DNA from: Candidatus Chloroploca mongolica
GTDB lineage: Bacteria > Chloroflexota > Chloroflexia > Chloroflexales > Chloroflexaceae
Assembly: GCF_004762035.2 (NCBI RefSeq)
Contig: NZ_SIJK02000011.1
Span: 1 to 64,000 of the forward strand
DNA length: 64,000 bases
Direction of reading: 5' to 3'
The notes beneath the pieces were generated by a model, which saw nothing but the letters and a program-made list of their open reading frames with translations, was not told where the DNA came from and did no database searches. A program made the translations under genes and the position numbers. Every line of letters starts with the position of its first letter. Within the stretch, counting starts at the first letter, position 1. Shown here piece by piece: positions 40,137-42,582 of this stretch.

Positions 40137-41045
40137 TCACTCGAGGAGAGCAATGCGTAGCTGCGCCAGATCCTCCTCTTGCAAACCAAGCCCCTCACGG
40201 ACATAGGCATCAAATGAGCCATAGATCCGGTCAATGGTGGTAAACGCCGTCTGCAAGTAGGCAACTTCAACCCCAAGAAGCTGGCGCACGAGGCTCGCTG
40301 CATGCTCGCCACGGGTCAGGCGAATCAACGCTAACTCACGCCGCCGTGCGCTGATGGTATACTCATTCGACCGCAAATAGTCGGCCAGAATCGTGTCGCC
40401 AGGTACACCGAGCAAGTGCAAGGTGAGTGCTGCCGCAAAACCCGTGCGGTCTTTGCCAGCAGTACAGTGAAAGAGCAACGGTGCGCCCTCAGTCGTCTGG
40501 ACGGTCTGAATAAATTGGCGAAATGACGGTGTAAAGCAGGTAATAAACTGTTCGTTGGCTTCGCTGAGCAGCGCAGCGGGATCAATGCCATCGAGGTCGC
40601 CGCGCTCAAAACGTTCGCGGAGATCAGCCATCAGGCTGCTCGTTTCTTCGAGAATGGGAATTTCGACGACATTGATGCCATGATTGGCTGGCAAGCGGTT
40701 CGGTTGCCGTAAACGCTCGGCCTCGCTGCGCAGATCAATCAGGGTGACCAGGCCCAGTTGCATCAGTACTTGCTGATCCCGACGGCTCAGATGGTACAGG
40801 TGATCGGAACGATAGAGCGCCCCCCAGCGGACCCGACGCCCGTCGTGGGTATGATAGCCACCCAGATCGCGCAAATTAGCGGCACCGGCAAGCTTGATGC
40901 GTCGGTGAGCCTCGCGACGCTCAGGCGGCATAGCTGCCGGATGAGTGGCCAGACGCCTCCGCCCCCGGTTGAACTTGTGAAGGAGCAGACCCATAACTGC
41001 CAACCCCATGCTCAAAACAGTTGTAGAACGGAGCAATGTGTGCAT
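40137..41045 (-). CDS. Tyrosine-protein phosphatase (Tyr_phosphatase3 type)
   Basis: A 302-residue protein with one N-terminal hydrophobic segment (about residues 7-23) and a dual-specificity-like phosphatase domain. The catalytic loop is HCTAGKDRTG (Cys-X5-Arg). NLRDLGGYHTHDGRRVRWGALYRSDHL (about residues 56-82) and LVTLIDLRSEAE are typical of the PF13350 group, which acts on phosphotyrosine, phosphoinositides or nucleotides. ATG 41045 is preferred; an extended frame runs upstream into the MITE and is rejected. Confidence 0.88.
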   Translation of the reverse strand: MHTLLRSTTVLSMGLAVMGLLLHKFNRGRRRLATHPAAMPPERREAHRRIKLAGAANLRDLGGYHTHDGRRVRWGALYRSDHLYHLSRRDQQVLMQLGLVTLIDLRSEAERLRQPNRLPANHGINVVEIPILEETSSLMADLRERFERGDLDGIDPAALLSEANEQFITCFTPSFRQFIQTVQTTEGAPLLFHCTAGKDRTGFAAALTLHLLGVPGDTILADYLRSNEYTISARRRELALIRLTRGEHAASLVRQLLGVEVAYLQTAFTTIDRIYGSFDAYVREGLGLQEEDLAQLRIALLE

Positions 41046-41128
41046 GGTGATGTCCCGATTTGTTGTCTGATGTTGCTTCATTCTACCATTGTACCAGTTT
41101 ACCGGTAGATAAGGCACAGGGCCGACTG

Positions 41129-41358
41129 TAGGGCGATTGCATCTTCCGTGTATGCACCCCGCCAGGGCACCCCTTGCGGGTGCCCTGGGCACCCGCAAGG
41201 GGTGCCCCTACAGGGCCGGGGGCTGGGCCCGGTGTACGGGCACCCGCAAGGGGTGCCCCGTTGTTGCCGGGGGCCGCCGTTTGCGACGCTCGTTGCATGC
41301 ACATGCTGCCAAATAGAGCGTATTTTTGTATCCGATTTCGTATGATGCAATCGCCCTA
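41129..41358. mobile_element. MITE-like element with TA-flanked terminal inverted repeats
   Basis: The 13-base inverted repeat GGGCGATTGCATC (41131-41143) returns as its exact complement at 41344-41356, and both ends are bordered by TA, the target duplication made by IS630/Tc1/mariner transposases. The 226-base interior has no transposase; it holds three 21-base copies of a GGGCACCC...GGGTGCCC palindromic unit (41165-41185, 41187-41207, 41238-41258). It lies 86 bases upstream of the phosphatase start and about 100 before the GntR gene. Confidence 0.75.
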
Positions 41359-41421
41359 GGGTAGATTGGGTGCATGTTTGGTAGCGAAACCGCCAAACAT
41401 GCATTCAATCTGTGGTATGAT

Positions 41422-41435
41422 TGACACTGTTGTCA
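41422..41435. promoter_or_regulatory. Inverted repeat TGACA-N4-TGTCA before the GntR gene
   Basis: TGACACTGTTGTCA forms a dyad 30 bases before the regulator start, with TTGACA and a TATGAT box nearby. It could be an autoregulatory operator. By eye only. Confidence 0.4.
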
Positions 41436-41466
41436 CTATGATATCTATGCCAATGATGGTGCCTCA

Positions 41467-42582
41467 ATGGAGTGGTTACACCTCGACCGCCATGCTGACG
41501 AACCAATGTATCGGCAGATTGTGGCTCAGGTCAAAGCAGCGTGTGCGCGTGGTCAGTTACGGCCAGGTGATCGTTTGCCAACGATACGCGTCCTTGCCGA
41601 ACGCCTCGGCCTGCATCGCAATACGGTGCTGCTCGCCTATCAAGAACTGAGCACCCAGGGCGTGATCGAAAGCCGCCCTGGGCGCGGGGCCTCTATTGCT
41701 GAACCCGTCCGCTCACCTGAGGCAGCCGTTCGTCTCCAGGCAACGGTTGAGACCCTGGTGCGCGATGGCCTGGCTGCTGGTATCAGCATCGAGGTTCTGA
41801 CTGCGCTGGTACGCGAAGAGGGTGAGCGCTGGCGTCCTGCGCCGCTCGCCACACGGCAAGCGGTGACAGGACACGAGCGACATATCCGCTTCGAGGGGAG
41901 TCACGACTTCTCGCTTGATCTGCTCGGGCGCGAGTTGCACAAACTCGATCCTGGTCTTGACCTGAAATGGCAGGCGGTGGGGAGCATGGCTGGGCTGCGG
42001 GCACTCGTAAATGGCGAAGCCGATCTGGCGGGGATGCATCTGCTTGACCCCATCACGGGAATCTACAATCAAGCGGCGATCGCGGCGCTTGCGCCTGCTG
42101 GCACCATTCAACTGATCACCCTGGCCGAACGCGAGCAGGGCTTGATTGTCCGCCATGGCAACCCCTTTGGACTACGCAGTATCGCAGACCTAGCCCAGCC
42201 AGGGCTACGTTTTGTCGCACGTCAGCCAGGATCGGGAACCGCCGCACTCTATCACCACCTGCTCACCCAGGCTGGTCTCGCACCTGGCCTGCTTGAGCCT
42301 CCCGTTCGCACTGTGACAACCCACCTTGCGGCAGCCGCAGCGGTTGCCTCGCACCGTGCCGATGTCGCCCTGGGCCTGCATACTGCGGCAAAAGCTATGG
42401 ATCTCGCTTTTATCCCCTTAACCATCGAACGTTATGACCTTGCTGTGCGCACGAGTGATATGGATACCCCGTGGTTTGCCTCATTGCTCGAAACGCTCGT
42501 AACACCTGCATTGCATTCTGCCATTCAGGCGCTGCCCGGATATGATGCGATGCATACGGCGTGGATGCCTCATATGCCGTAG
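41467..42582 (+). CDS. GntR-type regulator fused to a PBP-like ligand domain
   Basis: The 371-residue protein starts with a GntR winged helix (MYRQIVAQVKAACARGQLRPGDRLPTIRVLAERLGLHRNTVLLAYQELSTQGVIESRPGRG spans about residues 14-75). The rest (about 140-365) resembles the PBP-like domain used by molybdate/tungstate-type sensors: MAGLRALVNGEADLAGMHLLDPITG, GLIVRHGNPFGLRSIADLAQPGLRFVARQPGSGTAALYHHLL. It is followed 22 bases later by tupA, so it likely controls tungstate or molybdate uptake. Ligand is inferred from context. Confidence 0.85.
   Translation: MEWLHLDRHADEPMYRQIVAQVKAACARGQLRPGDRLPTIRVLAERLGLHRNTVLLAYQELSTQGVIESRPGRGASIAEPVRSPEAAVRLQATVETLVRDGLAAGISIEVLTALVREEGERWRPAPLATRQAVTGHERHIRFEGSHDFSLDLLGRELHKLDPGLDLKWQAVGSMAGLRALVNGEADLAGMHLLDPITGIYNQAAIAALAPAGTIQLITLAEREQGLIVRHGNPFGLRSIADLAQPGLRFVARQPGSGTAALYHHLLTQAGLAPGLLEPPVRTVTTHLAAAAAVASHRADVALGLHTAAKAMDLAFIPLTIERYDLAVRTSDMDTPWFASLLETLVTPALHSAIQALPGYDAMHTAWMPHMP

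Follow-up and report, generated by a model that had tools for sequence, protein, structure and literature searches.

Insertion sequences (IS) of the ISAs1 family usually duplicate 8-10 bp of their target. Miniature elements (MITEs) have been attributed to other IS families, as in the case of MITEPye1 of Paracoccus yeei, which was assigned to IS1182 (PMC11578231, in the portion available), and three MITEs of Aeromonas are mentioned in the accessible part of PMC5756416, where their family is not seen, so that we claim no priority here. GTAG-tagged palindromes have been reported in Chloroflexi (PMC3733652, in part). An ISAs1-type MITE is not described in the available portions of PMC3281130, PMC3542288, PMC9208149, PMC4133298, PMC5756416, PMC9330008, PMC11578231, PMC10907252, PMC3733652, and PMC10969869; ISfinder and most subscription papers lay outside this search.

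The window analyzed here is a stretch of 64,000 nucleotides from Candidatus Chloroploca mongolica (NZ_SIJK02000011.1), in which a first-pass annotation, made from the letters alone, had described a 226-bp MITE of IS630/Tc1/mariner type with a TA duplication. The element is indeed a MITE, as its many copies, shared ends, duplications, and empty sites attest, and very probably one of the ISAs1 group.

Materials and Methods

The genome of the window organism (G000; 6.32 Mb, 160 contigs) was compared with those of two sister species, whose element flanks recur in loci of Candidatus Chloroploca asiatica B7-9 (G001) and Candidatus Chloroploca sp. Khr17 (G002). The duplication test used only two-ended copies in fetched loci, with at most 3 mismatches in the ends and 100-420 bp between them, and excluded one-ended, contig-broken, and nested copies; its input (76 G000 loci plus the window, 20 G001 loci, and 20 G002 loci) was picked from match lists and is thus non-random. 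Fifteen ISAs1 loci were found and ten were checked for duplications, the other five (L174, L175, L179, L183, and L184) being excluded for a missing or poor end. Two hairpin loci, L152, which probably holds a degraded MITE end, and L164, were not counted as free of MITE ends.

Results

The element and its surroundings

The inverted termini noticed in the first pass proved to be 20-base ends that are 90% complementary in the window sequence (Table 1), and the length grew from 226 to 230 bp, since the terminal TA consists of the element's own bases. The element is thus short, with terminal inverted repeats and without a transposase gene; a 101-aa ORF spanning it had no Pfam match up to an E of 1, and no Rfam family reached the gathering threshold in 40900-41600. 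Its position between divergent phosphatase and tungstate-regulator genes was also correctly described: one neighbor is a minus-strand Y_phosphatase3 gene, the other a divergent regulator gene (GntR + PBP_like) starting at 41467, followed by a gene for a TupA-like tungstate-binding protein (TupA score 200.5, under the NCBIfam cut-off of 400).

Table 1. Features of the MITE and its target site in the window
Feature	Position	Strand	Description	Evidence
Whole MITE	41129..41358	+	230 bp; on each of its own strands the outermost base is T	Inverted ends, further copies, empty sites
Left terminal inverted repeat	41129..41148	+	TAGGGCGATTGCATCTTCCG	
Right terminal inverted repeat	41339..41358	-	TAGGGCGATTGCATCATACG (minus-strand reading)	
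Left copy, 10-bp target duplication	41119..41128	.	GGGCCGACTG	Family-wide 10-bp duplication; empty sites
Right copy, 10-bp target duplication	41359..41368	.	GGGTAGATTG	Empty sites; duplication counts
Hairpin unit 1	41165..41185	+	GGGCACCC CTTGC GGGTGCCC	
Hairpin unit 2 with GTAG tag, REP-like	41187..41211	-	GTAGGGGCACCCCTTGCGGGTGCCC (minus-strand reading); 21-base part 41187-41207	
Hairpin unit 3	41238..41258	+		

With the insertion, the divergent genes stand 240 bp farther apart; it may affect both promoters, as the first-pass annotation suggested, and an insulating or RNA-level effect on these neighbors is possible. Two promoter-like sites were found (0.7 expected), at 41430-41457 on the plus strand and 41467-41438 on the minus strand, both of them outside the element. 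The stretch from the MITE to the regulator gene includes a long hairpin (41362-41412), with one match in each of the three genus genomes; at the same place Khr17 has a different sequence with a longer stem and B7-9 a shorter predicted stem, and this hairpin may possibly be regulatory.

Copies in the genus

In G000 we found at least 97 BLAST matches to the 230-base element (with 40 of 178 candidates scored), and merging of neighboring rows left at least about 40 places. Searching with the terminal sequence, the check proposed by the first-pass annotation, bore this out: a 15-base end gave 223 matches at up to 2 mismatches as opposed to 2 for a backward-pattern control, and the version of the end with C instead of T as its first base had 76 exact matches. 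Across 100 genomes (the window organism's own included), a 20-base end at up to 1 mismatch had 163 matches in G000, 187 in B7-9, and 121 in Khr17, a single match each in G018 (an IS end) and G046 (a lone end), and none in the other 95. The lone MITE-like end of G046, a genome of the same order as the window organism, lies around position 1501 of its locus (L105); no second end was seen, and G046 has no ISAs1 match. Matches to the end sequence also lie within about 130 bases of the ends of six G000 contigs (C5, C12, C34, C75, C38, and C70), which suggests that the draft assembly breaks in these repeats and that such repeats may break assemblies.

Target duplication and empty sites

Among 45 two-ended copies in G000, the flanks were alike at 370 of 450 positions (82%) when a 10-bp duplication was assumed, as compared to 21-32% for the remaining lengths between 2 and 14 bp; 19 of these duplications were perfect and 35 had at most 3 mismatches. 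In a set of 41 copies, the figure was 336 of 410 positions. The same length stood out in B7-9 (156 of 210 positions, 74%, in 21 copies, 9 perfect) and in Khr17 (98 of 170, 58%, in 17 copies, 4 perfect), where other lengths from 2 to 14 bp reached 21-38%. At the window copy itself, left and right duplications agree at 7 of 10 bases.

The orthologous region of both sister species lacks the element, and both MITE flanks are collinear with these empty sites. When the window flanks were joined (..41128 to 41369..), the 135 bp aligned without gaps, with 7 mismatches to B7-9 and 31 to Khr17, and from these gap-free sites it follows that the insertion comprises 230 bp plus 10 bp. Empty sites in relatives, which the first-pass annotation had suggested comparing, thus do exist, but they are restored by removing the element and 10 bp, not TA. 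Either the window's lineage acquired this insertion or the other two species lost it. Other insertions are common to species, with all 40 flanking bases identical in 5 of 11 pairs compared (L009/L197, L017/L198, L021/L205, L033/L196, and L082/L195). A further pair, L019_1038/L220, was discarded as wrongly paired (9 of 40 flank bases).

Elements with the same ends

The 16 bases that follow the outermost base of the window MITE also form both ends of ISAs1-family elements in the two sister species. In Khr17 (L132, the same element as L171), this is a 1233-bp element that matches the MITE end at 16 of 16 bases on both sides and has two transposase pieces with NF033564 scores of 153.1 and 177.8 bits (cut-off 70); the damage to this element consists of an in-frame stop and a change of frame in the last part. 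The B7-9 element (L173), a 769-bp deletion derivative, has both ends identical to the MITE at 16 of 16 bases. With both elements damaged, no intact partner with 16/16 ends was seen in the genus. A likeness between MITE and IS was seen at the ends only. Further afield, one MITE-type end stands beside the start of an ISAs1 transposase at a contig end in G018 (L104), a member of the window organism's family. A record with the title Candidatus Gracilibacteria SM1_231_1 (L174) has the same IS end and flank; this title may not fit the record's DNA. A lack of both further copies and a related transposase had been named at the outset as the result that would speak against the annotation; copies were found, as was an ISAs1-family transposase with the same ends.

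A perfect 10-bp duplication flanks 5 of the 10 ISAs1 elements checked (L177, L178, L181, L182, and L185), whose ends are all more diverged (4-5 mismatches); the other five, including the Khr17 and B7-9 elements with identical ends, have no recognizable duplication. G000 has one ISAs1 transposase above the cut-off, on C84, plus one fragment. The C84 element (1327 bp, ends CAGGGCTTGAGCAAAGTC) has a perfect 10-bp duplication, and it was rejected as the direct partner of the MITE, as the only stretch it has in common with the MITE ends is its start, CAGGGC. No ISAs1 element with MITE-matching ends was found in the 6.32 Mb of G000. The only full-length ISAs1 element found in that genome (L034, 5061-6387) is directly beside a MITE copy (6403 onward), the right end of which was not found.

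A 1402-bp MITE-ended unit in L079 was also considered as the parent IS and rejected: its transposase is IS4-like (122.8 bits on NF033591, below the cut-off of 152) and belongs to a 1227-bp element with ends of its own (CTCAAAGGGTTTCAC; 882-2108) that is nested within a MITE copy.

The hairpin interior

The three 21-base palindromic units seen in the first pass were recovered at the positions in Table 1; such GGGCACCC/GGGTGCCC units averaged 0 in 100 shuffles. The GTAG-tagged unit has 267 matches in G000 at up to 2 mismatches (control, 0), and the interior units thus have the tag beside a hairpin and the high copy number of GTAG REP palindromes. Hairpin number and orientation differ from copy to copy: G000 copies hold 0 to 7 units, most often two (27 of 45), and one copy of 45 has none. 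Interiors also diverge where sister species carry an insertion at one and the same site. The pair L014/L204, orthologous by the left flank only, shows one hairpin with a flipped loop; the loop and adjoining bases differ in L016/L200, about 50 bases including one unit are missing in L033/L196, and unit repeats differ in L082/L195. The array therefore changes after insertion, and hairpin flipping, slippage, or gene conversion between copies are possible routes.

Among 20 fetched hairpin loci, 14 had a clear MITE end (at most 4 of 30 mismatches) no more than 260 bases from the hairpins and 6 did not, the cleanest free hairpins being those of L153, L158, and L161. In the last of these, two GTAG hairpins lie back to back at 586-635, without MITE ends, in apparent coding sequence.

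Discussion

The family of the element at 41129-41358 has multiple copies, target duplications, and empty sites, and we are highly confident that it is a non-autonomous miniature element of the ISAs1 group. Its ends match at 16 of 16 bases, on both sides, two ISAs1-family elements (transposase NF033564), and the 10-bp duplication found in the MITEs is also that of the C84 element and of half the related ISAs1 copies checked (5 of 10). The ends, Y-AGGGCGATTGCATCTT..., would be recognized by an ISAs1 transposase supplied in trans, and insertion at a 10-bp staggered cut followed by fill-in would leave the 10-bp duplication. Between the ends, GTAG-tagged hairpin units form an array that varies from copy to copy. 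Both the mobilization in trans and the staggered cut are what we infer. Because no matching transposase was found in the window genome, the MITE is presumably inactive there now, and its copies look orphaned.

Of the other explanations, the one that fares best, although still very improbable, is that a REP/RAYT (Y1 transposase) system spreads GTAG palindromes, so that the hairpins are the mobile part and the MITE ends mere passengers. The GTAG-plus-hairpin architecture with its 267 genome matches, the 6 of 20 hairpin loci without a clear MITE end, the three Y1_Tnp matches in G000, and the GTAG repeats reported in Chloroflexi (PMC3733652, in part) are all consistent with it. However, none of the three Y1_Tnp loci has a hairpin within 3 mismatches in the stretches examined, the MITE ends are where the duplication and empty sites were measured, and one copy of 45 holds no hairpin unit. 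Since no Y1 transposase locus carries the GTAG unit, or is flanked by the same palindrome, within those stretches, a REP-type origin of the interior units is only a resemblance. A compound reading, which we consider unlikely but less so than the preceding one, is that of a two-tier element, in which the GTAG REP-like hairpins of Candidatus Chloroploca have come to be carried mainly by the ISAs1-moved MITE, multiply and flip inside it, and occasionally escape to other sites, perhaps via a Y1 transposase.

The IS630/Tc1/mariner assignment of the first-pass annotation, with a duplicated TA, now has a very slight probability. TA does stand at both ends of the window copy, and G000 has three DDE_3 transposase matches, but TA is found on both sides in only 12 of the 45 two-ended copies, and over their 90 ends the outermost base is C nearly as often as T (T 44, C 39, A 5, G 2). 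As the outermost base varies, and 10 bp are duplicated, the TA of the window copy is read as part of the element, namely an outermost base that varies (T or C) and the A next to it, and not as a target duplication. Nor did the search for an IS630-like transposase with the same ends, as that annotation had advised, succeed: at the three IS630-type DDE_3 loci the 14-base end had no exact match in the stretches examined, the best having 3-4 of 14 mismatches, so that no ends in common with the genome's IS630-type elements were found there. The 10-bp duplications in three genomes and the empty sites obtained by removing the element and 10 bp are decisive against this reading, and the same ends are found on ISAs1-family elements. 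It is scarcely credible that the element is a regulatory or terminator structure of the intergenic region with inverted ends by chance, as its intergenic position and very stable DNA fold (z -7.6) would allow, given that it is repeated in many other places, has zero terminator-like sites around it in 40950-41520, and does not occur at this site, with its collinear flanks, in either sister species; these empty sites speak against an original role.

The MITE described here, assigned to ISAs1 in place of IS630, is ordinary in kind, and its hairpin interior is unusual. For phototrophic Chloroflexota it adds an ISAs1-type MITE family whose 10-bp duplication has been measured and whose empty sites are clean. 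It also illustrates how variable outermost bases can give a copy TA at both of its ends, so that assigning a family from a single copy can mislead.

Compared with ISAs1-family IS (NCBIfam NF033564; PF13808 + PF01609), the MITE has ends that likewise begin C/T-AGGGC and a duplication of the same length, whereas it lacks a transposase gene and was seen to resemble the IS at the ends only. GTAG-tagged REP palindromes, as the available part of PMC3733652 presents them, are similar in having GTAG by a G+C-rich hairpin in many copies, some here apparently outside the MITE; they differ in that most of the hairpin loci fetched here lie beside a clear MITE end and no Y1 locus has the unit. MITEPye1, to judge from the portion of PMC11578231 available, is alike in being short and without a transposase gene, with inverted ends, direct repeats, a strong fold, and the ends of an IS family. 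In contrast to MITEPye1, the Chloroploca MITE has ISAs1 as its partner family, dozens of copies as opposed to 1-3 per chromosome, and a variable hairpin array as its interior.
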